A stretch of DNA of 64,000 bases from Tridacna crocea. Lineage: Eukaryota > Mollusca > Bivalvia > Cardiida > Cardiidae. Every line of letters starts with the position of its first letter. Position 1 is the first letter of the stretch. The notes under the pieces are model-generated. The model had not been told where the DNA came from, did no database searches, and was given only the letters and a program-made list of their open reading frames with translations. Location: contig OX031063.1 of the NCBI GenBank assembly GCA_943736015.1, forward strand, positions 38,146,672-38,210,671, written 5' to 3'. This document shows, piece by piece, positions 1 to 19,800 of this stretch. Both the position numbers and the translations under genes were made by a program.

Positions 1-190
1 TTTAACTTCATCATGTTATGCTCTTGGTGAAGGTCTTTCCTTTCACAGTTGGAGCACAGGTCGAAATCGGGGCACATCAAACATTTATAGCGAATTCCCT
101 TGATGGGCCCCTCACATCCATCACAAACAACTCCCTCATGGAGTTCCCCCTCAGGCTGTTGATCTTTCTTAGGGACTTCCGCATTTGGTA
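1..190 (-). CDS. SQSTM1: SQSTM1 coding exon 3, partial (ZZ zinc finger)
   Basis: The acceptor TTTTCAAG (minus strand) is followed by [10 protein letters not shown] and then a ZZ finger with all Cys pairs and the HxxxH tail (HQEHNMMK). The frame is still open at position 1, so the exon or gene continues outside the window. Confidence 0.92.
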
Positions 191-3100
191 CTTGAAAAGC
201 AAAGGTAACATTTTTTCAAAGTTATACTTCTATGACATGTTGGAAGATACCCTCAAGACTTTTTCTCAGAAGGTTTCAAATTATACAAAGCCAGTAAGAC
301 TAGGACTGTTTTATAAAATCTCAAAGTGCTAAATTACACACAAAGAAATTTCAAATATTGCAGGCTACCACCATTTCCTCCCTTTTAAAGGTGGCCCTTC
401 AGATTTTGGGACAAAATTTTACAAAAAATACAAAAAAATCATCCTTGTACTCCCAAAGCTTTATAACTTTCATCCATTAAACCCCAGTAGTCGAAAACCA
501 TCCGACAACTAGATAAATTAGAGATTTACTACAGCCCAGGTCGACAATGAAGGGAAACGCGGTCTATTTTTACATGAGCAACTCGATCATTTACATACCG
601 GAAATATACAGACGAAGCTTCAAGCATAGCATCCGAAGTTCTAGACATTATGGAAAATAATTAAATCTTTGTTATGTTACGGAATTTAATAGTCATAAGT
701 CACGTGCAAGTCACTTAACATTTCCACAATACTTTTTTGATTTTGGCGGGAAATCTAAAAATAGCTTAAGAGGCTACGTAGCCTTTTAAGGGAATACCAC
801 CAAAAAAATTTTTTTTTGTAATTTTATTATTCTTAATTACTGATGATTTGTATTGTTTTTTCATATAAATTCAGTGACATATATATTTCTTAATTTGGTG
901 TGATGTGAAAATTCTAAACACCCACCTTTAATGTTTCCATTTCCAAACAATATTTTCTCTTTGTCAAAGAAGTTGAAACTCAGGAATATTTGGGAAAAGT
1001 TTAAATGATAAATGCAATTGAGTCATGCCCCATGGAAAGGAGGTTTAATGCAACCTGACATGGACTGAAACTTTTTGCTATTTGTATGGCCAAGGACCAG
1101 TCTACCTCATGGCTAAGTCTGCACTTAGACAAAATAAATATTTTGGATCCATAGTTTTGCAATGACTTGCTCGGCATGTTGCCTTCCAGACCTTTTATGC
1201 TCCAGTTATTGGCTTATAAACTTGATTTCTTTTGATTACTGAAAATACATTCCATCAAAACTCAGATTTGAATCTCATTGCAGGGCTAACACAGTCAATA
1301 TAACTGATCCAAGATCTGACCAAATGTTCTATGCATAGTCTTATCTTGATCTACCATGTATGCCATTTATAAAAGTGACTGTTTAGGTCTTTATCACACA
1401 ATCAGGACTTTTCACACCCCTGTACAAGAAGCATTTAGAAAACATTGTTGGAAAAGAAGAAAATGCTGGTACCCAGCATTTTCTTCTTTTCCTACAATGT
1501 TTTCTTCTCCAACCAAAACAAAAATCATTATTTCACTTACATATAATTTTTCGTCTGCAAATCCTTTCAATTTGGATCAGTCTATTTTTTTGTCCTTTTG
1601 TAAAGGGTTAACTCTTTACCAAACAACAAAATTTTGGACTGGCCCAAATTGAAAGCATTTGCAGATGACAAAATAAATATAACTGAAAATTTGAAATTGG
1701 ATTTGGGAAGGGTAGATAACATTATGGGAAAAGGAAAAAATGCTGGTTACCAGCATTTTCTCCTTTTCCCACTTTTCAGAAGACCTTTTTCTTCGGGTTG
1801 TCAAAAGTCGGGATTGTGTGGTAAAAAGTTTAGGCAGTGAAAGGTTTATTGCCCAAGAAAGTTTGGTAAAAGGTTAATCCGAAATGAACAACACTCTTGA
1901 ATCATCCATACCTAAGGATCTAATGTACACTTTAAAGACAGAGTCTGTCACAAACCCAAGGGCTTCCATTTGCTCCTCGTCCGTGGAAAATAGAATTGAG
2001 TCTCCATCAGGATCTACAAAATAATGTAGGTAATATCCCAACTAATTAACTCTGCAAAACAAGGTGGGGGAAAAAACGTTTTCTCCATTGAATTCTTCTC
2101 CCACAATGTTTGCATAAGTATTCTTCCTCAAAGGTCTTTGGTTATCAACATTCCATTAACCCTTTACAATCCTGTGTACAACATTGTGAGCAAAAGGGAG
2201 AAAATCTCCTTTCTCCTTTACCCACAGTGTTTCCTATCCTGTCAATGAATTTAAGTTCAATTGTACCACTTTGAGATTTGTCATCTGCAGACACACTCAG
2301 TTTGGAAGAGTCTAAAATTTGTCTTTTATGAAGGGGTTAAGAAATCTGCAGAAGAACTAAGAAGTACCAAAGTAAAGCTACACCCTTTATCCCCTTTCCC
2401 AACCTTCTCGAAAAAGACATTTAACTCTTTACCAAACAACAAAATTTTAGACTGGTCTAAATTGAAAGCATTCGCAGATGAAAAATTAAATGTTGTCAAA
2501 ATGCTGATTTCTTTTTTTCAATTATGGGTAGAAAACATAGTGGGAAAAGGAGAAAATGCTGGTTACCAGCATTTTCTCTTTTTCCCACAATGTTTTCAAA
2601 AGGCCTCTTTCCCAGGGTCGTTAAAAGTCGGACTTGTTTAGTAAAGGGTTAAACACTGAGGTAAGAGAACAAATCCTGCTCCCTCATTCTTCCCTTTTCC
2701 ACAATGTCTTCTACCTTTTCAAAAGCGAATTTCAATCCCAAAGTAGACAAGATTGAAAATTTTTCATTCAATAGAGAGTTAAATAAATATCAAACTGCAG
2801 ATAAATCAAAATACATGTGTACTTTTTGGCGAGATATTTTTAACTTTCAGACTTGACCTTTTACCAAACAATCCCTGGTTTTTACAACCCAGAGGAACAG
2901 GCCTACTACAAACATTGTAGGAAAAGGAACCAGCATTTTCTCCTTTTCCCACAAATTTATCTACTCTTTCATAGTCAACTTTCAATATCTGAGTTAAGTT
3001 TATTTTGCCATATTCAAATGCTTTCAATGTGGATGAGTCTAAAATTTTGTTGTTTGGTAAAGATTTAAACGTAACTTTAATATGTTTGTCACATTCACTC

Positions 3101-4432
3101 TTTACCAAATGAAAAAATTGTAGATTTGTCCAAATTGAAAGCATTTGCAGATGACAAAATAAATGTGGCTCGAAAATTGGAATTTGTTTTGGGTTGGGAG
3201 AAAACATGAAGAGGATAAGGAGAAAATGCTGGTTACCAGTGTTTTCTCCTTTTCCCACAATGTTTTCTACAGGCTTTTTTCTCAGGGTCTTTAAGCAAAG
3301 CACAAATCAGTTGCCAATGAGTTGGAAGTCTATCAAAAAAGAAAATCTGGAAATTTAGAAGCCCCCTCGATCTGCCAGTGAGTTGATTTGTCTCAGTAGA
3401 TAGAGAATAGGACTCGTGCACACAATGTTTCGGGTCACTTAAGGTTGTGGGTTCAATTCCCTGGCTGGCCAACTTAAATTACTAATAGTCTTTCAGATGA
3501 GACATTAAACCGAGGTCCCGAGTAACGGTGCTATACGCCGAGCACATTAAAGAACCAGGCAAAGGTCTAATTTTGACCTGTATCCATGCACTATCCCCCA
3601 TAACAAATAACCGTTTTCTGGTAGCATCGCTCAGATGGACAATTGGTAGCGACGATAAACAGAAATAACCATCATGTGATGTTCCAGTTTGTTAGATGGC
3701 AAGGATGTTTCAAAGGATGTCATAACTAATCCACACAAAAAGTGCAATATGGTTTGTAAAAGAAACCCCTTTAGTTCTGTTTCCACGGAAACCAGAGATC
3801 TCTAGTAAACCCCTGGGAAAGAAGCCTTTTGGAAACATTTCAAATGATCACCAGCTTTTTCGGATATTCCTGGAATGTTTTCTACCTTATCGAAGAAAAA
3901 ATGCACCATATGAGAGGCACTGAAATTGTCATCTGCAAATATTTTCAGCTTGTATAAAGCTAGAATTCTGTCATCTGGTAAAGAATTAATTTACTTAGCT
4001 CAATTGACAGATTTTGTCTTTGAATTTGTAGAAAACATTGTAGAAAAAAGTAACCATTGTCTTCTCCATTTTCTACAGTATTTCCATGAGGCTTCTTCCA
4101 TTGATTGTTAAGACTACGGACTTCTTTGTAAAGGGTTAATCCTTCGGATGTTTCATAACTTGTAAAAGCGCGATCACTCACTGACCTTTTGAGGACCATG
4201 TAGATCAGGATCAGACTGCACAGAACGGGGGTATTTGTAGATAACATCGTAATCAATACATACCTCTCCAATACAACGAAAAGTTGTCCTCAGCCAATCC
4301 TGGGAAGATGTTTGCGATCTTCTTCACTAGATAGGCATAGCTGCTGGACACGTCGGCTGGAATCTGAAAGCGACGTATTTCGCCGTTTTCTTTTCCATCA
4401 ACGTCTAAAAACGCCTTGACTGTCAACGACAT
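1..4432 (-). CDS. SQSTM1: Sequestosome-1 (p62) gene, 5' part: three coding exons, incomplete at the window edge
   Basis: Minus-strand exons 4432-4264, 2013-1912 and 190-<1 join in one frame (1-nt overhangs at both junctions). They encode the N-terminus of p62, the receptor that polymerises and links ubiquitinated cargo to autophagosomes. The PB1 domain has the basic cluster (LTVKAF, then EIRRF) and the acidic OPCA motif (DPDGDSI, STDEE); both polymerisation faces are therefore present. After a short linker comes a ZZ zinc finger with [19 protein letters not shown] and HQEH, including the two acidic residues of CPDFDLC that bind N-degrons in the family. The LIR, KIR and UBA regions must lie beyond position 1. 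The start ATG (4432-4430) is the first in frame, giving MSLTVKAF, close to vertebrate MASLTVKAY. Introns 1 and 2 are full of Hp1 elements. The gene is divergent from SREBF. Identity rests on remembered family motifs; I am confident. Confidence 0.93.
191..1383. other. SQSTM1 intron 2, repeat-poor part
   Basis: AT-rich intron sequence without a recognised gene. 1089-1200 resembles the fragment at 54231-54370 (both begin GGACCAGTCTACCTCATG), a dispersed repeat of unknown type. Confidence 0.6.
1384..1611 (+). mobile_element. Hp1 hairpin MITE
   Basis: The central hairpin is GGAAAAGAAGAAAATGCTGG and its complement. The right end GTAAAGGGTTAA is intact; the left end is decayed. It shares its right TTAA with the next copy. 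Plus orientation is defined by a left arm reading ATCCCTACTTTTGACGACC and a right arm with GTCTGCAAATGCTTTCAATT. Confidence 0.9.
1608..1832 (-). mobile_element. Hp1 hairpin MITE
   Basis: It begins TTAACTCTTTACCAAACAAC using the TTAA of the previous element and is inverted relative to it. The right end is decayed (AAAAAGTTTA). Confidence 0.9.
1912..2013 (-). CDS. SQSTM1: SQSTM1 coding exon 2 (OPCA half of PB1)
   Basis: The exon is 102 nt, with acceptor TTTGTAG and donor GTATGG on the minus strand. It encodes [15 protein letters not shown] and ends near VYIRSL, matching the acidic PB1 motif and last strand of p62. The reading frame is open only in the phase set by exon 1. Confidence 0.93.
2156..2340 (+). 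mobile_element. Hp1 hairpin MITE, internally shortened
   Basis: Both TTAACCCTTTAC and GGGGTTAA ends are present. The stem is diverged and the left arm is about 40 bp short. Confidence 0.8.
2421..2652 (-). mobile_element. Hp1 hairpin MITE, intact
   Basis: TTAACTCTTTACC and GTAAAGGGTTAA ends are at full length (232 bp) with a near-perfect stem. Confidence 0.92.
2853..3068 (+). mobile_element. Hp1 hairpin MITE with part of the first stem arm deleted
   Basis: The left end is CCTTTTACCAAACAATCCC. The inner first arm is missing (GGAAAAGGAACCAGC), so only half of the stem can pair. It ends GGTAAAGATTTAA. Confidence 0.85.
3095..3300 (-). mobile_element. Hp1 hairpin MITE, 3' end lost
   Basis: It starts CACTCTTTACCAAATGA. 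The stem is complete with one G/T change at its tip. The element stops in CTCAGGGTCTTTAAGC. Confidence 0.85.
3377..3610 (+). mobile_element. tRNA-derived SINE
   Basis: An A-box-like GTCTCAGTAGATAGAG and a B-box GGTTCAATTCC form a Pol III-type head. The body GATGAGACATTAAACCGAGG is a core sequence I recognise from aquatic invertebrate SINEs. Confidence 0.65.
3805..3989 (+). mobile_element. Hp1 hairpin MITE, degenerate
   Basis: GAAAGAAGCCTTTTGGAAAC and GTCATCTGCAAATATTTTCA align with the family; the stem is mostly lost. It ends GGTAAAGAATTAA. Confidence 0.7.
3986..4139 (-). mobile_element. Hp1 hairpin MITE, degenerate and shortened
   Basis: It shares TTAA with the preceding copy, keeps GTAGAAAACATTGTAG and ends GTAAAGGGTTAA. 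Confidence 0.7.
4171..4230. mobile_element. Hp3 fragment
   Basis: Left half of the stem only (GTAGATCAGGATCAGACTGC), in SQSTM1 intron 1 about 40 bp from the exon 1 donor. Confidence 0.6.
4264..4432 (-). CDS. SQSTM1: SQSTM1 coding exon 1 (first half of PB1)
   Basis: It starts MSLTVKAF and holds the basic PB1 residues, with EIRRFQIP about 20 residues in. It ends in YWR plus one base, followed by donor GTATGT on the minus strand. The length is 169 nt. The split codon continues as Asp in exon 2, restoring WRDPDGD, the expected OPCA entry. Confidence 0.93.
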
Positions 4433-4691
4433 CCTCTAATTCTGTTAGTTTCTTGAATTGTTCAAGTTGTCAACGATATTAACGCAAGAAAAAGTTGTAC
4501 ATTTAAGTTCTATAACGCTCTTGTCAATGACTCACGTTCACCTGATTAATATTGCGACGCAATTTCAATACACAATATTGTATTACGTAGTGATAGGTGA
4601 TGTTTAATTTACATACACAATCTATTTTTAGAATGTCCTTCACCGGGCATTCCCTTCCGGGTCAAATGAACAACATCAAGAAATATTCGAG

Positions 4692-4701
4692 ATCACCCCA
4701 T
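4692..4701 (+). promoter_or_regulatory. Candidate sterol regulatory element (SRE)
   Basis: ATCACCCCAT matches the LDL-receptor SRE-1 (ATCACCCCAC) at 9 of 10 bases. It lies 58 bp upstream of the SREBF start codon. Confidence 0.6.
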
Positions 4702-4717
4702 CGCGCGAAGTGTTTTG

Positions 4718-4722
4718 ATTGG
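4718..4722 (-). promoter_or_regulatory. Candidate NF-Y site (inverted CCAAT box)
   Basis: ATTGG on the plus strand lies 16 bp downstream of the SRE-like site. NF-Y cooperates with SREBP at about this spacing in vertebrate sterol-regulated promoters. A 5-bp motif alone is weak; the pairing adds the weight. Confidence 0.5.
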
Positions 4723-4759
4723 ACAATGCAGCGTGGTGTCATCTACAGAGAAAACAACC

Positions 4760-4868
4760 ATGGCCGACCCAACGAGTTGGTCGCTGAATGATGATGTGTT
4801 TCCAGACTTGGATAACGATATACTGTCTTCTAATTCTCTTGACAATTGCATTTTAGATGATATTGATG
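4760..4868 (+). CDS. SREBF: SREBF coding exon 1 (acidic N-terminus)
   Basis: The exon encodes [20 protein letters not shown] and ends in DDID plus one base, with donor GTAAGT. It is rich in Asp, Leu and Ser, as expected of the SREBP activation domain. Confidence 0.93.
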
Positions 4869-7800
4869 GTAAGTTACTCAAATTTCTTAATTTTTGTAAA
4901 AAAACACGACTTAATGTTCGCTTAAACATCAAAACATGAGAGGTGATTCAACGCAACGGGCCCACCAAAGGTTTCGGGATTGCTGTAATGTGGCAGTTGT
5001 TATTTCTTTAAGACACACAGCTTCCCAGGTATTTCGTCATTAGAAAACTTAGCATTCCCATGTTTTGTATTTTGTTTGGCTCTTCCAAACGGTATAATTA
5101 TAGACTTGTGTGAATTGAGATATTTTGCAGATCACAAAATTCAAATGAACAAGTGGAGGTAAGGGGATGGGTAAGAAATTAGTCTCAATAATGAGACGCA
5201 CCGGTGATCTTTTTCATATTTGGATATTTACTGTACACCGTACCCAGAGGCGACCAGTCGAAAAGTAACATTGCCTTTGGGGACAGTAAACTGTACTAGG
5301 TAGGAAATATGGTAAAGTAATATTTAGTAACCAGCATCCCCTCTTCCTTCATTGTTTGCAAAAGACTTTTCTCAGGGATGTTTTAAAAAGGGCATAATAC
5401 CAAAAAATATTACTGCAGTAAATAAAAAAAAAGGCTGTTTTTTTCAGTAACTAAAATTTGAAGATGGTAGACAGGTTTTCATTGACACAATTTTGTGTGT
5501 CATCAACTCTTGACGTATATTTTAAGAAAATGACCCACATTTTTTTCTATGATGCATCGAGGGAGAAAAGCCCGTCATCAAAGATTCCAAAACGCCTGGT
5601 AAGAGGACACTAAAACACATTTCAAGGACTCGAGGGTTTACTGTAAATTACAATATAGCTTAAGAAATACTTTGTTATTTGTTGAAAACAAGGGCATGAA
5701 TGCAACCTCCATTTTAAAATACAGGAATCAGCAGATTAATTGGTGAGAATATGAATAGTTTATTTTTAGGCCAAAATGGATATTTTCTATAAAGTAAAAC
5801 AATAAAGACTTTCCAAGCACAAAATTCAACCCTTGTACATCGTCAAAACACTAGTGTTAGTGATGATCTCCTTCAAAGAATACAATTACCAAGAAATATG
5901 ACAGCTTGTCTGAAGTTAGAGCATATTTTCTTGGTAAAAACAGGCAAAAATAAAGCATACTTAAGATACTGTTATGAAAAAAGTGTCATTTAGGCTGCAA
6001 GCTTCTTCTCTAAAGAAACTTGGAAGTTATTATATGTATCTCTCACCATCTTAAACATATGTAGGGTATACAAAGATTTACAGTGAATACAAAACATGAA
6101 AAAGATACATGTTTTCCCAAATACTTGCTTTTGTCCAAGGTAATTACATATTGGTGTAACCCCCACAAATTCCAAAATGACCCCCATAATGTTTGACTAG
6201 GAGGTCACAATGACCCCCTTTACATTTTTATTGCCAAGAGAAAACCCTAAGTGTAGATCACCAGCCAGACTTCAGATTTATACCAGTTGAATCTGAATCT
6301 TCTCTGCTGTGAATCTGAGGGCAACTTTGAGCAACCGAAATGAATCTGCTGTGATTAGATAGACTGAAGGTATTGCAGTCAGCTTTGAGAGTTTAACAGT
6401 TCAAAATATCTGACAAGATAGATCTAGAACCAGTCCGATTTTTTTTGCTAGTTCTTCTTGTTACTAGTTGCTAAAAAAGAGTTACTGCTAAATCAAATGA
6501 CCCAGAGAAGGAAACCTAATGAAAATGTTGAGGGAAAAGAACAGAATTTGGATAACCAGCATTTCCTCCATTGCCCACTATTTATTTTGTCAAAAAAAAT
6601 TATCAACGAATGCCATATTTTATTTTCATTCCACAAAAGTTTTCAAATTTAAGGAGTATGTTTTTGTCAATTTTTAACTCATCACCAGACCACAAAAGTT
6701 TAGACTTGTTCAAATTGATAGCGTTTGCAGAGAAGAAATTTTCGGTTGCTCAAAGTATATATTTTATGGTGCTGTAGAGAACATTTTTTTTTTTCAAATT
6801 TAGTTTCATATTAGAAAGAGTAAAAACTTTACCGCTTTTTTTTTTTTCCTATTACAGATATAGTGAAATATATTTGCCCTGATGGACCAGCCAGTGCAGA
6901 TGCTGATGTGTTCAGTGCAAGTGCTCAGCAAGACCCTTCCGACTTCTTGATACAAGATCAATCATTAGCACAGCCTAGTGACATCAAACAAGAACTGGAC
7001 TTCGACATTGGGGAACAGCTGCTGTTGTCACATGTAAATCAAGATTCAAACCCATTTTCAGTGACATCACATAGCGAATCATTACTTAGCAATTTACCAG
7101 GAAACAAACAACAAACTCTAAATCTCTCACAGCTAAGTAGTGCACAGCAATTACAACAAGCAGTATTGAAACTGCATGCACAGAGACAGAGCCAAGTTGC
7201 ACAACAGCAACAGAAACAGTTGCAACAGCAACAGTTAATACAACTTCTTTTGCAGTACCAGCAACAACAGCGACAACAAGAAGAGGAAAGGCAAAAACAG
7301 CAACAACAGAACCTGACCGTAACTCAAGATCAGCTCAAACTCCTTTTGCTAGAGTACCAAAATAGACAAAATAAGAGTAAACAGCTAGTTCAACAGTCAA
7401 AACCAGCCGTCCACAACAGTTCTGGAATTACCATTCAACAGCTACAGCAGGTTTTTTTTCTTTTTTTTCAAACGCTTCATATATTTGGTCATGGTTCTTA
7501 GATATGTATTACTTGTTCACAAAATGACAAAATTTTGGAAACATTCAAATTCAAAGCTCTTATAGACGAGATGTAGCTCAAGAAATGGAAATTGTCTTTG
7601 AACAGGCTGAAACATGGTGGAAATGGAAAAAGGAAAGATGCTGGTTACAATCATTCTTTCCTGGTCTCAAAATGTGTTCAAAAGCTTTCTTCATCAGCAT
7701 GCTCAAGTTTGGATCGCATGGTGAAGGGTTATTGTGGATTTATCCACTGATATGGGCCATAACTTTCATGCACAACTTAGTGGGATATTTGTAGACATTT

Positions 7801-10800
7801 TAAGATCAGATGCACAGCATTACTTCCTTTCTTTGAAAGTGGTGTTTTGAAGGCCACAAAAAAGTGCTTTTCTGACTTTAGATTAAAACAAGTCGGCATG
7901 TGACTTCTTGTGCCCCATTTGCACTGATTCATTTTGTTTGTGCAGTGTCAGTATTTAAATCAGTCCCAGGTTTAAATTCAGTTTGCTTTATTAAGCTAGG
8001 TAAAAAATTATACTAGTAATGTTTTTGCAAAATGCTAGTGTCCTGTATGACTCGCTGATTAAGGCAGGAAATTTGCTGCCAGGAAACCTTGCGATCAATA
8101 ATTCAGGTTGTAGTGCTGATCACATGGAATTACTGAATTTTTTCAAAGTGCTGCAGTGCCCCATTCGCATGCTGTTGATTTCCAGGAAAGAAGAACATTT
8201 GTAGAAAAAGTGAGCATGTACCATTATTGAACTACAAACTTGATTAATGTTAAAACCTGCATACAACATCACTTTGTTGTCTTTCTTGTTTTTCAGTTAC
8301 TAAACTTACAGCAACAACTTGGGCATGGAGAAACTGGCAACTCAATACCAATTCAGGCAACCACCCCATCACAGGTATCCTCGCCCATATCTATACAAGC
8401 ACCAGTCTCGCCCTCATCCATCCAGGTCAAACCATCTGCAGGCATTTTACAGTCATCCTCACCGGTACAACTACAAACCAGCCCTATTGTCCCATCCTCA
8501 TCCCCCGTCCAGATACAAACAGCACAAATCTCCAGGTCTAGTCCTAGTGTATCATCTGTGCAGAATGTGACACATGGTGGTGCCATTGTAACAACAAATA
8601 TCCCAATTCAGGTGGTGGAAAATGAGAAGGTGCCTATAAATAGACTGAATCAGTCCAAGCCAGGCTTGAGGCCCCCAAAAGGAGAGAAAAAGACATCCCA
8701 CAATGCCATTGAGAAACGCTACAGATTGAGCATCAATGACAAAATCACAGAGCTGAAGGATATTGTGGCAGGAAAGGAAGCCAAGGTAAGCAAGATGTTT
8801 ATTTTGTTATGAACTCTTTACTGGATTACAAAATTTTAGACTTTGTCTAAAGTAAAGGCATTTACAGATAAATAAATGAAAGTGAACACGTGCCAAACGA
8901 TTGGATTAACCCATTACCACACAATCCCCACTTTAGACAACCCTGAGATAGAAGCCTTTAGAAAACTTTGTGGGAAAAGGAGAAAATGCTGGTAACCAGC
9001 ATTTTCTCCTTTTCCCACAATGTTTTCTATTCTTCACAAAACAAATTTCAAATTTTTAGTCGCTATTATTTTGTGGTCTGCAAATGCTTCGATTTGGACA
9101 AGCCTAAAATAATGTCGTTTGAGTTAACTCTTTACCAAACAAAAAAATAGTAGACTGGTCCAAATTGAAAGTATTTGCAGACAACAAAATAAATGTAACT
9201 GAAAGTGTGAAATTTGGTTTAGGAAGGACGGAAAACATAGTGGGAAAAGGCCAAAATGCTGTTTACCAGCATTTTGTCCTTTTCTCACAATGTTTTCATA
9301 AGGCTTTTTGCTCCGGGTCGTTATAAGTCGGGATTGTGCGGTAAAGAGTTAATTCTTGAAGGGTATAAAATCTAGTCGATAAAGGGGAAAAAGCTGGTTA
9401 CCAAACTTTTCCCAGTGATGACTTCCATGGTATAAAGCAACAGATAGATGCGTTAAGCCTCCTTTTGCCAGAGCATGGCTCATAATTATGTTTGAATTGT
9501 TCATGACAGTAGTATAAAACTTTGAAAATATTCTAGATTCATGGAGAACTGCTTCGTCCATAACATTAGAACAAGAAAATTTTGCAAAGTTTGGAGCTAC
9601 ACCCATTTTGTGTACTTGCTGTAGAAAATTTATTATGGATAATGCATGCCACCAAGTGAGACATAACTTAAAGAACTATAAAATTGACCTTGTCTCAAGA
9701 CCAAATGAAAATATTAGAATGGTGTAGACTGGTCCTTTGGCATCTGAAATTTTACCAATACGTAGCTGACCTAGGTCGATGCTTTTTGCAGATGCAGTAA
9801 GCCCCCTTTTCACAGAGTGTGACTCAAATGTTATTTTGCTATGTTTCAAATACCAGTTTTAACTTAGCCCCATGTAAAGGCTGCAAATCTAGAGGATATG
9901 TGGAAGACCATGGCATGATGTGGTGGTGCATTGTAGTTGCATTGCATTGAAATTTAAAGTGTGCAATGTTTCTGCAGTGCAATCACTAAACTTGCCCAGA
10001 GCAGCATGGACAGCAGCAGCAATGGCTGACTACTACCTTATGACTCCAACGAATTTCAATGCTTTTTGAATTAAATGAGTATACAGTAGTGATAATATCT
10101 GTATTCACCTGGGTACGCAGAGATCAAGATTAACTTACAAAATATATGGATTCATGCTTGAAATTGGGGGATGGTGCTTGAATTATTTCCAAACTTGTAT
10201 GCCACAGGAAACAGTAAAATTCTTTTACAGACATTTCAGGCCAAGATTAGAACAACCAGAAGTTTGTTTCAGAAGTGAACTCAGGGCCTGTATTCACCAA
10301 CCATTCTTAAGAACTTTCTTTGTCTTACTCTCCAGAATTTTCTATATTTGAAAGTAACACAATTTCTGATTGCCTAAACCATGCTGTTTAGCCAATCAGA
10401 AATTGTGTTACTTACAAATATAGAAAATCTTGCAGAATAAGACTAAGAATATTTTCAAGAATGGTTTGTGAATATGAGCCCAGATCTTGGTGTACATTTT
10501 AATGTAGTTTTAGGCTACAAAAAAACCAACTTGAAATGTAGTATTTGGGTCTTGGGATGAAAATATCCATTTCAGTTTATATATAGGAAAGAATCAATTT
10601 TCTGTACCTCATCACCTTTGTGTTTTTTTTTGTATTTTAGCTTAACAAGTCTGCCATTCTCAGAAAAGGAATAGATTACATTCGCTACTTACAAGCCCAG
10701 AATGACAGACTGAAAAAGGAAAATATGTCACTGAAAATGGCTGCCAGAAAACAGAGTAAGTTACTATACAGTGAAATCTTGACCCTTTTAGTGGCCTTTA

Positions 10801-13800
10801 CCACACATACCTTGACTTAACTACCTGCAAGAAGGCTTTTTGGAGACATTGTGGGAAAAGTAGAAAATGCCGGTAACCAACGTGATCTACTTTTCCTGTG
10901 ATGTTTTCTGTCCAATGAAAATCAAATTTCATGATTTAGAAAAGATTTATTTTGTCGTATGCAACTGCTTTTTGGATAAGGCTAGAATTTTGTTATGTAT
11001 CATGGTATGTTTAAAACATCTACTGCATAAAGTAATGCAGAGAGCAGTACTGCTCTCTGCATTACTTTATGCAGTAGATGTTGCAAACAATCAGAACTCA
11101 TGCTCCACTCTTCCATTTGCAAAAAGTTATTTTAAGTCTGTATGAATACTAGTAATCTGATAATTATTTCTATTGATAAGTATGTATGTGTTTGAGATCA
11201 TCCTAGACTTTTCAAACACAGTGTGAGTTTTTGATTATCTTGGTAAATTTGTTATTGCCTTGTTATTGCCTTGTGACCAGCTTTTTCTCCTTTTCCCACA
11301 ATGTTCTCAGAGGGCTTCTTCCTCTAGGTCGCCAAAACCAGGGATTGTTTGGTAAAGGGTTAATAAACAAATGGTGCGTTGAAATTGAAATTAATTCTTT
11401 TTTTTTACAGATCTCCAAGAATTGTTACAGCTTGCCAAAGAGGTGCCAGATGAGACTTCCCTACTTACCCCACCGGGGTCAGACATCAGCAGTGACAGTG
11501 AGGTGTCCTCACCAGGCAGTCCTGCATATGAGGATATGGGTATGTTGTCAAGCTCATTTTCTACAGAACCCACCACTGACCATTGTTTTGGTGATTGCTA
11601 TTTAGGAAAGCAGCCAGTGGCATATATTCATTATGTGACATGTCAAGTAAAAAGGGGCCATCTGGGAACTGCGACAAATGTCAACCCGGGTTGGCCTGTG
11701 TGGGTTGCACAGGCTGACCAGGGTTGACATGTTACACTTTTAGGATATATGTGTATGATTTTCTGTATCGGATGTGGTCATTCTACTGTGCCTCACTGTT
11801 CAATAATTTTTTGCATGCTTTCAATTTGGACCAGTCCAGAATTTTGTCATTTGTTAAAGAGCTGACTTGCGTATTTTGTTTCTTTCAGATTCTCAAAGTG
11901 ACACAAAGATGTTTGTTACGAATGGTATGGCAGACAAAACAAGATTTACACTGTGTGTCTTTATGCTGGCTGTTCTAGCCTTCAATCCATTTGGAACAAT
12001 CCTCAACACAGCTGGAGTCAACACTGGAGACTCCTATGACACGGGGTATGCTGGCAGACAGCTACATGGAGTAGAAGGAGTGTCTGATGGTGAGTTTCTT
12101 TCAGGATAACATTGCTCAGAATTTATGTTTTTAACACATTACCAAACAACAAAATTTTTGGCTTTTCCAAATAGAAAGCATTTGCATACAACAAAATAAA
12201 AGTGATTGAAAATTTGTTTTTGTGAAGTGTAGAAAACACTGTGGGAAAAGTCAAAAGTAGGGATTGTGTTGTAAAGGGTTAAGCCTCTCAGAGCTCCAGA
12301 TAGAGGGAGTGATTTGGATTTAAGAATTGAAAGTATTGATTATTCTCCCTTAAACCCTACATTGTGGGTACTCATTATCGAGACGATTCTTATGAGTACA
12401 CACAACTTGGGGTTTCAACGAGAAACAATGACTTTAGAATACCATCACTATCCTTCACCTGGAGCTCTGCCTCTACCATATGATAAAATTGTAAAAATGG
12501 AGGGTGTTTCTAATGCTTTAGACTGTGACGGTGTCAGTTAAAGCACATGGCAGTGGACTTAAAGCACTAGCATGTTCTGCTTTCCCAGAAAGGTTTTCAT
12601 ATGTCTTCTTCCGTAGAGTCTTCACAAAATGGAAATGTGTGGTAAATAGTTAAATATATGTACATATAATATAATAGAATCAATATATTTTACCAGGATC
12701 ATGGTCAATTTGGAACACAGGGCTCCTGTCAACATTTTTGTTATGGCTTGTGAATGGTTTGATAGTGATAGGAGTTCTAGCAAAGCTGTTTATATTTGGG
12801 GAACCAATCACATCAAAGAACAGTGAGGCCAGCACTGCCTACTGGAGGCACAGGAACCAGTCTGGCCAGGATGTTGCCAGGGTATGTAGTATTGACTGCT
12901 ACTGTTTTTCAATTATTATGTTGTACATTATTGAAAACGTCCCTCATGATTTAGTAATAATTGGTAGGGATTAAAGACAGTATTGTTTAACAAGCAGCTG
13001 CCAGTTTTACTTTTTTAGTGTGAAAAATCTCAATGTTGTAAATAGTGTAATAGACTATCAATTGTTAGAGATTAATATTGTGATAAATGAAGCAGTTGCT
13101 CAGTATAAGTGAAAATTTGGTGGGCTTTTATAAACATGCAATCTTTATTGTTGCTGTAGTTGTGTATTTCCCATATCTTAATAAAAATATTTGGTTGTTG
13201 ACAGTCCATACTTCTCCATCCATCCATCCATCCATAAAATTTTCATGACCCTGCTGCGAATATCTTGTGGAATTATCTCCCCTTGAAACTTTTTTCAACG
13301 CTTACTTTTCAACTCTTACTTCTGTACTAAACCATTCAGCATTCTGTGACAAAAACCTGTTTTTGTGACAAGGGGCGGGGGGGGGGGGGGGGGGGGGGTG
13401 TTATAATTGCGTTTAGTGATAGCTCTAGTTTTTACTGAAAAATCACTAGCTGAGCTTTTGGAAGGTCGTAACATTTTTCATGCTTTTTGTTGAAGAGTTT
13501 TAGTTTATGATGTTTTTTGACCAAGGACACCTTTTCATTGGAGTGAAAATTGGTTTATGGATGCAGGCTGAACTTTCTTGCAGGGTGATTTTTCGGCAGC
13601 TGCACACCAACTGAGACTAGCATTGATAGCACTTGGGAGGCCCTTACCTACATCAAAAGTGGATCTGGTAGCCAGCCTGATCTGGCAGATTTTCCGACAG
13701 ATTTTGCACAAGGTGTATGTGGGGCGCTGGCTGTTCTGCCGTTCAGGTAAAATGAGGAGGAAGCCAGTTGAACCCACAGATGTGAAAAGTTCAGCAAGAG

Positions 13801-16800
13801 ATGCTGCTGCAGTGTACTTTAAACTACATCAGTTACATTTAGCTGGTAAGTTTGCTTTAGTGAACACTTTACCCCACAATGGTACCTTTTAACAACCCTG
13901 GGAAAGAAGCCTCTTGAAAACATTTTGGGAAAAGGAGAAAATGCTGGTTACCAGCATTTTCTCCTTCCCCCATAATGTTTCCTACAATATCAAAGATTTC
14001 ACCGTTTTAGCTACACTGAAATTGTCGTCTGCAAAAAGAGTTAGATATATGCTACATCAACATCACTAATATTTCAGTAACACTTATATTAAGAAAAAAT
14101 AGAAGTGCAAGGTTTTGTAATGTTTATTGATAAGAAATTATAGTTCCCATAAATTGTTAAGTCTTGACCTGTAATTATAAATCTGGGCAAATACTTTCAA
14201 TTTAAAATTGTACTAAATTTTGTCATTTGGTAAAAATTAAGTATTTAGTGAGTTTTCAAGTAAGTTGAATGCATTTTATTATAATCCCCTGCCTTAGGCA
14301 TACACATATTGAGTGTAGCTTAGGTGTTTCTTATTCTGTCTCAAGTGAGATATAACTGATATAAAGTTGAAAGCAGAGTAAAACACCATTCGGTCAATCA
14401 AGTGTGTTGAAATGCATTTGTTTTGAGCAGTCAACTGCCTTAAACATGCACATATCTAGTGTTCCCTGGAAGCTTGTCATTATGTTACAGACAATAGTAG
14501 TTGGACTGTATTGCCTATCCGTTAGGCTTGAAATAGTAGGTTGTGTAAATTCAATTCTAATGTTTAACTACCCCTCAGGATATGTGCCTGGAAGTTTCCT
14601 GTATGGATTGAACCTAAGTCTGTGTGCCATCAACCTAGCTGAAGCATCTGGAGATCTGATATCTAGTACCATGGTGGCGGAGATATACATTGCTGCTGCT
14701 CTCAGGGTCACCCAAAGCAAACTGAAGTTCATGGCTGTAAATACCAATTATTTAACTCTTTACCACACAATCCTGACTTTTAGCAACTCTTAAAGAGAAA
14801 GCTTTGGAAAACCTTATGGGAAAAGGAGAAAATGCTGGCATTTTCTTCTTTTCCACATTGTTTTCTTCCCTATCAAAGGCAGAAATTATAATTTGAGCAG
14901 CATCTTGTTTGTAGTCTGCAAGCTCTTTCAAGTTGGACATGTCCAAAATTTTTTTGTGTACTAAGGAGCTAACTGCGACCCATCACGCTACAAGGGACCA
15001 GCTGGGAACTGCAAAAAGGTGTTGACTGTGGTCAGACTGTGCGGATTAGGCAGGCTGGCCAGGGTCAACACTTTTCGCTTTTATAATTTTTCCAGTAGGA
15101 AAAATGGTCATTCTACCTTGCTCTACAATCATTTTTGAACTAGCAGCTTAAATTGACCTGCACTGTCTTTGATCTGTTTTCATCTAATTCCCAAATTGTC
15201 TCTTTTTGCATGACGAGTCACAATTTTAAGAGATCACCTAGTGCTCACATCTGGCTCACCCCTTCCCACCCCCCATCCCTTTTTACTGCTGCATGGCAAG
15301 AAATGACCTTTTGTAATCTGTCGGGTTCATCTGTTGAGCTCATTGTACTCACTGGGGGGGGGGGGGGGGGGGGGAGAAGCATTGTGTTATGTTGTCAGAT
15401 GTTGAATTATTATACCCCGCAAAATGAATGCTTTTGGGGGTATACCAGAATCAGCTTGTGTTATCCACCATACATCTGTCCATACTGTAACTGGGCAATT
15501 ATGAGTTCAGTTGTGGGTCTGTCCATCATTTGTGAGTTTACAAAACTTATGAGCTAAGCCCATGTGTCCGTCTGTGTACAAAATACTAGTAAAATTCCTC
15601 CCCCAGTTTTCCTTCAGTTGTATTGAAACTTTGCACATATATTGATCACATATTGCAGATTTGCAAGACGCAATTTTCAAATGTCAACTCTTTCTGGTTT
15701 AGGAATTATCTCCCCTTGAACATGACACTTTTTTCTGTCAACGCGCTGGTGGGGGTATTAAGTCACATTCAGTGACAGCTCTAGATTTCTTTTGCTAACA
15801 AATACAAAATTTTTCTCCATTCATTGAAAATTTTTTGCAGTTTTAAAACAAAATATATAAAAATGAGATTACCAATTCATGTTGAATTTACTTTACCTGA
15901 ATGTTTTCTAATCAACCCTTTACCGAACAATCCCTGGTTTTTACGACCCTGAGATACAACCTTTTGAAAACATTGTGGGAAAAAAAGAAAATGCTGGTAA
16001 CCAGCATTTTTCTCCTTTGGCAACAATGTTTTCTATCCTGCTGGTAGGAAACTTCAGTTTTTCAATTACATTTATTGTGTTGTCTCCAAGTGCTTTTGAA
16101 TGGGACCAGTCTAAAACTGTGTAATTTGGTAAAGTGTTAAATTTCACTCTTAAACTTTGATTTTAGGAGATAACCACTAAAATGAAAGAAAGAATGAAAC
16201 AAAGAATATGTCCCTAACAAATTATTTGTCATACTCTGATTATGTATGGCTGTGGCTGACTTATTATGTATATTTTACAGAGATATTTTCTGAGCTCTGC
16301 ATGCTACACAGTATCACACAGTGTAGATCCAGTTCCTGCCAGTATTCAGTGGATTTGTCATCCAGACGGATACAGGTTTTTCGTCAATGGGGAATGGAAT
16401 CTTACAGCCAAGGACAATATTTTTTCATCTTGTCCTTGCATTGGTATGGTTAAATCTCTTTCATTAAAAATATGCTGATATCAATTGATTTTTCAAACAA
16501 ACAGTTCTATAAAAATACCTCAACCCTTTACCACACAATGACGACTTTTGAGGATTTTGAGGAAGACACCTTCAGAAAAAATTGTGGGAAAAGGAGAAAA
16601 ATGCTGATAACCACAAAGTTTGTTTTCCTATCAAGGAAAAATCGAGTTATTTGAACCACTATAAAAATGTGGTCTGCAAAAGATTTCAATTTCGATAGCT
16701 CTAAAATTCTGCCATGTGGTAAACAGTTAAAGCTTGGTCTTACATGCAGTAAATGTAGTTGTACAAAGTTTTTAGTGTTAACTTAGATTATACTTTCCAA

Positions 16801-19800
16801 GCTTTTGAAGTGTTCATGAGTTAATAGAATTAACAGTCAATGGCTCTCCCAAGGTTTAAAGATACAACTTTTTGTAAAGTTAAACTGCAGCAAGGTACTT
16901 TAAAAAATAGGTTGAAGTAGTTAAGCTATGTTCAGTTACACAGAAGTTGAACTCTGTTACTTAATGCATACATATGAGCCAGACTCGATGAGCTTTTGTT
17001 GTTGTTGTTTTTTTTTCAGCTGACCCTCTTGCAATTGTTACACAGCAGTTTAGATGTCACTTACTGGAAAAGTCTTTGTACAGTCTAGTTTCACCTAGAA
17101 ACAGGAATTCAGAGGGAGAATTGAAATCTGCGGAGGTATTACAGTATGCTCAGTTACTGGCTGATGTGTCATGTTTGAGGCAGAATAACAGACTGGCACA
17201 TATGTCCAAAAATATCGAAATTGCAGGTAGGTTTTGTATTGCAATTAACTTCTAGTTTTTCATGGAAAGAAGTTGTGAAATAATGTGTATGTTCAGGATT
17301 CAGAATTGAGTACACATATTCTGCACAAAAGTATCAATAACACTGTTTTATATTATGTCTGAAATTTGAATTAAGAATTTCTGTTCAAGTTTTTTTTCTT
17401 TTTCCTTGTTCTATAGAACTTGGTAAAATAGATTTAGAAACTGTGGAAGCCTAATTTCTCTGATTCAGAAGAATGAATGTCTTTTTGTTTTATAACCAAT
17501 ATGTGACAGGTTAAATACCTGTACATGAATTTGTGAAAACATTTCAGCCACAGGGAAAGTTTCATGTGATCAGCTTTTTCTTTTGCTTTTTTGTTTTCAA
17601 GAAATAACACTTCTTACTTTTGTTATAGAAAAGAAGAAGTAACAACATAACCTATTAACACATAACCACACAATCCCTACTTTTGACGACCCTGAGAAAG
17701 AAGCCTTTAGAAAACATTGTTAGAAAAGAAGAAAATGCTGGTAACCAGCATTTTTTCCTTTTCCCACAATGTTTTCTACTCTTCACAAGACAAATTTCAA
17801 ATTTTCATTTTTTTATTTTGTCATCTGCAAATGCTTTTAATTTGGACCAGCTTAACATAATGTCGTTTGGTACTGAGTTATACAAAAGACACAATTTTGG
17901 TACTTGTCCAGATGCAAAGCATCTGCAGACTGCAATATGAATGTGACTCAAAAATTGAGAGCCATCTTTCTTATAACCAGCATTTTCTCCATTTCATAGT
18001 TCTTTTTTTTATTTTTCAAAAAACATTTTCCTCCAGGGCCTATTTTCACGAAAAAAAAAAACAAATTTCTTATTTTGCTCAAGTCAGCATTCAAGCCTTT
18101 TTCCCAACTGAAGATGACTTCATTATTTCAGATGCATTTCACCAACATTATCAGACTAGATACATTTTCATATCCTTGGCTGACACAACATTTCAGACTC
18201 ATCTAAGCTAAATAATGGACTTGAAGTCATTTTAAGTCCATTTTTTTGCTGAGTGTCAACTAAGGATTTGAGAATGTTTCTTTAGTCTGTTAATATTTTA
18301 AAATAAGTTTCAAGTAACAAACTCAAGTCGTAAATGGGGTCTGCAGGCTTGAGTAGAATGACAGACTTAAATTTTTCATGATCTTGGGATATAATTAAGT
18401 GTTTTGAAAGTCAGAAATAATCTCTTGTGTTTTTCCCCTTATCCATAGACTATGATGAGGCTGCACTATGGTGGTCTGGTGTGGTATCTGTCGCAATGTA
18501 CTGGCTGATGGGAGATGATGAAAATGCAGAGAGAAGTTACTCCATGGTAGATTCGTTCCCAAGGAAACTTCAGACATCTGATGATCCATTACCCAAGTCA
18601 GTGCTCATGGCTTTTAAAGCAAGAAGGAATTTCTTCTGTAGTGGACAAAGCTCTCATTGTAATGCTGTTATTCGTCAAGCAGACAGGGCTGGCCGATTAC
18701 TGCGCGAGAGTTTGAAACTTACCTATAGTAAAGAGAGCTCAGAAATGATAAAGGTAAAAAATTATTGTAGAATCTGAAAAGAAATATTTTGTTTTGTTTC
18801 TTCCTAATGCATCATTTGTTTTTGGACAGAAGAAGAAATCCCCATTGCCATGTCAAAATTGGATAGACACATATGGAAGGACTTCAGAATTTTACTTTCC
18901 ATGACGTTTGTGTGCTGTAGGGCTGTGACTCTTTAACTCTTTACCAAACGCCAAAATTTTGGGTTAGCCTGAATTGAAAGTATTTGCAAAAGACAAATGT
19001 GAATCAAAAATTGAATTTTTTTAAGAAGGTAAGAAAACATTGTGGGAAAAGGAGAAAATGCTGGTTACCAGCATTTTCTCCTTTTTCCACAATGTTTTTA
19101 AAAGGCTCCTTTCACAGGGTGTGTTAAAATTCAGGATTGTGTGGTAAAGGGTTAAAATGAAACTACACTTGCTGTGTTCTATTGCAAGGCATTGAAGAGC
19201 CTGCCTAGGCATGGAACTGGAATAGGAGGATGAATGGTAACTGAGCAGTTGTGCATTGTAGTTGCATTGCGTGTGTTTCATCTTTCGCAGTGCTTCTGCA
19301 GTGCAATGACTGACTTTGCTTTAAACAACTCTACATATACATGGAGCATCTTCGCTGAAATGGATCTACAAGAAAGTAAACCTGTTTTGTTCTTGGACAT
19401 TGACCAGCCTCAGCCTGACTGACTAATTTGTTAAAGAAGTAATACTTTTAGGACAATATCTCTTTTTTTTTTTTTTTTTTTCAGGATAGAGTAGTTAGTG
19501 ATCTGTATTGACTCTATACAAAAATCACAAGTTAAACTTGCTCATAGTGAAAGCATTTTCTGATGACAAAAAATAAATATATGGTATAGATGATAGCATT
19601 TGAGTAGATAGGGCAGAAAATATTGTGGCACAATGAGAAATTGCTGGTTACCTGCATTTTTCCTTTTCCACCATTTTACAAAAGGCTTTCTTCCTATCGT
19701 CAGGACTGCACAGTTATTTGTTGAAGGATTAATCACAGCAAGTTTTACTATACAGTATTTTAAGTTGCATCATATTTCTGATGTAATCTACACTAATTCA

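Follow-up and report, generated by a model that had tools for sequence, protein, structure and literature searches.

Promoters between head-to-head genes of animals form a class with CpG enrichment, no TATA box and ETS/GABP-like motifs, and the elements of bidirectional promoters are often common to both genes. The best spacing between a sterol regulatory element (SRE) and an NF-Y site is 16–20 bp. In humans, the SQSTM1 gene is located at 5q35. The human genes SREBF1 and SREBF2 were assigned to 17p11.2 and 22q13, respectively, according to the title of a work cited in PMC2478640. The consulted part of a study on the mouse Srebp2 promoter reports that reporter activation by RALY was lost after mutating the NFY or SRE sites (PMC7033216). 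For mouse liver, binding and activation of several autophagy genes by SREBP-2 are stated in the consulted part of PMC5073315, citing Seo 2011. Searches of open-licence literature, a scope outside of which most subscription journals lie, brought up no description of a linkage of p62 and SREBF in the titles and opening lines of abstracts that they listed.

We analyzed a window of 64 kb, by which we mean the whole stretch C8:38146672–38210671, from contig C8 (60.8 Mb) of an animal genome, probably that of a mollusc, of 1.05 Gb in 31 contigs. It contains the N-terminal exons of a p62 gene, called p62-A, on the minus strand and an SREBF gene on the plus strand, together with the following features around their start codons:

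1–190, minus strand: p62-A exon 3 with the ZZ domain, running on past window position 1
1912–2013, minus strand: p62-A exon 2, coding for the C-terminal part of PB1 and modelled by hand from splice sites and phase
4264–4432, minus strand: p62-A coding exon 1, which supplies the N-terminal part of PB1
4433–4759, no strand: intergenic gap between the start codons, proposed divergent promoter (CpG o/e 1.24, GC 37%)
4528–4534, no strand: weak AP-1-like site TGACTCA close to p62-A (Markov-model P 0.06)
4654–4660, minus strand: ETS/GABP-like CCGGAAG (Markov-model expectation 0.009; the 200 kb of background contain 8)
4692–4701, plus strand: candidate sterol regulatory element ATCACCCCAT
4718–4722, plus strand: ATTGG, an inverted CCAAT box and candidate NF-Y site, separated from the preceding SRE by 16 bp
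4760–4868, plus strand: SREBF coding exon 1
6858–22652, plus strand: SREBF exons 2–15 (GT/AG model, open frame)

The start codon of p62-A occupies positions 4432–4430 of the minus strand (CAT at 4430–4432 on the forward strand), and its three N-terminal exons yield one open frame when joined. Pfam recognized an N-terminal PB1 domain (PF00564, 5.1e-7) and a ZZ zinc finger (PF00569, 1.7e-13) in the product, and the top PDB chains were those of Sequestosome-1 ZZ (2.6e-16) and Sequestosome-1 PB1 (7.2e-12). Past the ZZ exon on C8, the gene continues with an exon containing the candidate LIR-like sequence SWTLL, spotted by eye, and then with a UBA_5 exon (3.8e-16 for this piece); we take UBA_5 to represent the UBA domain of the p62 type. 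The second intron of p62-A contains a short frame on the minus strand (532–753) with an ATG at 648–650 and a donor-like GTATGT, which is preceded by CACGTG (701) and by TTTGGCGGGAAA (742), presumably an E2F-like site. No in-frame join of this frame to the ZZ exon was seen by eye, and it is possibly an alternative start site or an insertion.

The SREBF gene starts with the ATG at 4760 on the plus strand and was modelled with 15 exons with GT/AG borders, which stay open up to the stop codon at 22650–22652 and code for 1148 amino acids (1150 if an alternative donor is used). Exons 2–15 code for an acidic and Gln-rich part, a bHLH-Zip domain across exons 3–4 and a C-terminal part; in the 1148-residue model, two hydrophobic segments were seen by eye in exons 6–7, followed by a long C-terminal part. 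The bHLH domain was recognized by Pfam (6.7e-16), and the bHLH-Zip matched PDB entry 1am9 (SREBP-1a) with 1.9e-29. Both aligned sequences contain EKRYR, whose tyrosine we regard as diagnostic of the bHLH of SREBP. An additional, out-of-frame ATG at 4726 on the plus strand opens a 21-codon ORF (4726–4791) overlapping the SREBF start codon, which is a possible upstream ORF of SREBF if the transcript begins upstream of 4726. The preliminary description had named the two genes SQSTM1/p62 and SREBF and placed 327 bp between their divergent start codons. Both identities are borne out by the domain and PDB matches, the UBA_5 exon and the open 15-exon model. The distance between the start codons, less than 1 kb, is indeed 327 bp (4433–4759), and the span of 4264–4868 assigned to the arrangement agrees with the borders of the two first coding exons at 4264–4432 and 4760–4868.

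If the gap is queried against the genome in a search that skips very common words, the single match is the gap itself. In a self-comparison of the window, which is blind to elements without a second copy there, repeats cover 28.7% of the sequence, and the stretch at 4228–6496 is the longest of 111 runs without any base under at least two other matches. This run extends 36 bp beyond exon 1 of p62-A to the left and 1.6 kb into intron 1 of SREBF to the right. The earlier claim of a transposon-free intergenic region is in accord with the gap lying inside this run and having one genome match; the claim that both flanks are full of transposons applies to the p62 side, but not to the immediate SREBF side with its 1.6 kb of repeat-free sequence. 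A high-copy, MITE-like palindromic element with a GGGAAAAGGAGAAAATGCTGGTTACCAGCATTTTCTCCTTTTCCC-like core was noticed in the window (e.g., at 2417–2655, 2851–3294 and 8899–9373), and as many as 122 other matches inside the 64 kb overlap its bases. The CpG o/e of the gap is 1.24 vs. 0.63 for the whole window. As a background, we used 200 kb of sequence, for which two 10-kb pieces starting at round coordinates were taken from each of ten contigs (20 pieces in total). The value of the gap is reached in 61 of 1274 windows of the 64-kb sequence and in 156 of 1780 background windows, which have a median of 0.55. Because this enrichment is moderate (top 5–9% of windows) and the GC content is only 37%, the gap is hardly a classical CpG island.

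The gap was scanned with 23 patterns, of which 11 matched, five of them being SRE and CCAAT variants. The candidate SRE is located 59–68 bp before the ATG of SREBF and 260–269 bp upstream of the ATG of p62-A, and we take ATCACCCCAT and the following ATTGG to fit the consensus sequences of an SRE and an inverted CCAAT box. By the Markov model, the gap should contain 0.002 strict SREs and 0.0008 loose SRE/CCAAT pairs, chance figures that are flattering because the pair was first recognized by eye and its rarity tested afterwards, with a spacing range picked post hoc, and because 23 patterns were scanned (11 matched). Taken by itself, the CCAAT box is no rarer than chance predicts (0.5–0.7 expected per gap by the Markov model and the background). 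A similar loose pair, allowed in any order or orientation, has one match in the 64-kb window and none in the 200 kb of background, where the strict pair also gave 0 matches. In its position right before the start of SREBF, the pair is hard to ascribe to chance. Further sites of the AP-1, two-unit HSE, CRE-like, E2F-like and Inr-like types matched weakly (P 0.03 to 0.75), and the pattern scan gave no match in the gap for ARE, MARE, CLEAR (TCACGTGA), CACGTG, TATA, CRE, UPRE, NRF1, three-unit HSE, YY1, Sp1 or DRE. The missing TATA match carries little weight because only 0.18 matches are expected in the gap.

A second p62 gene, p62-B, is present in tandem with p62-A on the same strand (C8:38120600–38133700), and its ATG at C8:38133631 is 17.5 kb away from that of p62-A. 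The gene order on C8 is p62-B, p62-A and then the divergent SREBF, and only p62-A, one of the two tandem genes, is arranged head-to-head with SREBF. The exon set of p62-B comprises its own PB1 exons and ZZ, middle, LIR-like and UBA exons, with SWTIL as the candidate LIR-like sequence seen by eye and a UBA_5 score of 2e-15 for the respective piece. Exactly two UBA_5 matches were obtained genome-wide, which belong to p62-A (C8:38142351–38142479) and p62-B (C8:38120693–38120824). The identities between the two copies (tblastn) are 59% for exon 1, 63% for exon 2, 66% for ZZ, 40% for the middle piece and 81% for UBA, a wide divergence which suggests that the duplication is not recent. Counted from its ATG, the upstream region of p62-B contains TATAAAAG (TATA box) at −149, ATTGG at −285 and CACGTG at −395, and the SRE pattern is absent from the 600 bp upstream of the gene. 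The CpG o/e in the last 327 bp before the ATG of p62-B is 0.68, and comparing the 327-bp gap with the 1.5 kb upstream of p62-B gave short matches only, with E values of 0.17 or worse. Searching the genome with the SREBF bHLH yielded two matches; because both are exons of the SREBF gene in the window, SREBF appears to be single-copy at this sensitivity. No relative was found in a scan of viral contigs with the same bHLH.

We propose that the gap is a divergent promoter by which SREBP regulates its own gene, with a possible effect on p62-A, and assign a probability of about 0.6 to this reading. The CpG-enriched gap of 327 bp without a TATA match would drive p62-A leftward and SREBF rightward, and its use as the promoter of both genes appears quite likely. 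Nuclear SREBP and NF-Y bound at the SRE/CCAAT pair would activate SREBF itself in a positive feedback; autoregulation via this candidate element is probable in our estimate, and by analogy, the loop would resemble that of vertebrate SREBF2. Because shared elements are frequent in bidirectional promoters, an action on p62-A from 260–269 bp away is possible as well. SREBP at the same element may then also raise p62-A, which would couple lipid or sterol shortage to selective autophagy, but we regard such a control of p62-A by SREBP as tentative and rather doubtful. The second copy, p62-B, would supply p62 independently of SREBP from its own upstream region with a TATA box. The preliminary description had already postulated a bidirectional promoter co-regulating lipid synthesis and selective autophagy. 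The promoter itself is in accord with the geometry, the CpG enrichment and the unique sequence, and it is made more plausible by the SRE/CCAAT pair on the SREBF side, a concrete means for SREBP to act on the region. Of the two tandem p62 genes, p62-A alone belongs to the arrangement; the co-regulation is a possible consequence, weakened by the second p62 gene outside the arrangement. A more far-reaching variant would be that the copies divided their control after the p62 duplication. In this case, p62-A would have been fixed head-to-head with the single SREBF under the SRE/NF-Y promoter, where active SREBP would jointly increase lipid synthesis, the expression of SREBF and that of a dedicated selective-autophagy receptor, p62-B would be of the TATA type and independent of SREBP, and selection would hold the arrangement across related species. 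We consider this variant improbable.

To gauge its rarity, the SRE/CCAAT pair was also searched in the whole genome. The strict pattern ATCACCCCAYN{12,22}ATTGG gave 11 matches in 1,048,827,098 bases (6 forward, 5 reverse), one of which is the site in the gap, and the reversed control pattern gave seven (4 and 3). Genome-wide, the strict pair is not clearly in excess over the control. The CpG o/e around the other ten matches ranges from 0.09 to 0.86 vs. 1.11 at the gap site by the same measure, and eight of the ten surrounding 2-kb pieces contain repeat sequence. One of the other matches lies within a tubulin-like reading frame (882–1115 of its 2-kb piece) and another within a GR-rich reading frame, both as judged by eye. 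The pair is no general promoter mark in this genome, and its use as a finder of other SREBP targets was dropped in view of the 11 matches vs. 7 for the control and the lack of a CpG-rich context. These ten further exact matches, the seven of the reversed control and the surroundings speak for an accidental match in the gap. Against this stand the location of the site at 59–68 bp before the start codon of a gene whose product binds SREs, the low expectation for the loose pair in the Markov model and the density of the strict pair in the genome, by which it is expected about 3e-6 times in 327 bp, a value flattered by the same choice by eye. We rate a chance match as very unlikely.

The gap need not be the main promoter of both genes. 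One or both of them may have non-coding first exons elsewhere, for which the gap offers two candidate acceptors, one at 4742 on the minus strand with a score of 8.0 (top 1.9% of AGs) and one at 4632 on the plus strand with a score of 5.9. The score was built from the 14 acceptors of SREBF, which themselves score 6.3–15.4. Because the site at 4742 falls into the range of true acceptors, there is room for an upstream non-coding exon of p62, whereas the site at 4632 scores below all 14 SREBF acceptors used for building the score. The CpG enrichment and the ETS-like, SRE and CCAAT motifs present together in the gap also speak against distant first exons, which we consider an unlikely explanation. 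We give about even odds to the idea that the genes are accidental neighbours whose separate core promoters happen to share one gap, SREBP acting on SREBF only and stress factors on p62-A. Divergent genes at short distances are frequent in animals, the SRE is located towards SREBF and the AP-1-like site towards p62-A, and because p62 is duplicated, the copy linked to SREBF need not be the main one. However, since the gap is only 327 bp long including both 5′ UTRs, the elements of either gene should reach into the promoter range of the other.

Compared to the known systems, the locus shares several traits with the head-to-head promoters of animals, namely less than 1 kb between the start codons, CpG enrichment, no TATA match and an ETS/GABP-like motif. 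Unlike typical bidirectional promoters, it has a GC content of only 37% and would hardly count as a classical CpG island. The presence of an SRE and an NF-Y/CCAAT site upstream of an SREBP gene, here seen as sequence motifs, is similar to the mammalian SREBF2 promoter as described in the consulted part of PMC7033216. If the proposed reading is correct, an SRE/NF-Y feedback of SREBP in the SREBF promoter of an invertebrate would indicate that this feedback predates the vertebrates. In humans, neither SREBF1 nor SREBF2 is paired with SQSTM1, whereas p62-A starts at the other end of the gap in the genome analyzed here. A connection between SREBP and autophagy has likewise been proposed for SREBP-2 in mouse liver; there, the term p62 occurs 0 times in PMC5073315, whereas the connection suggested here would be made by gene order. 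A promoter common to SREBF and a p62 paralogue would tie lipid sensing to selective autophagy via the order of genes rather than via scattered target sites.
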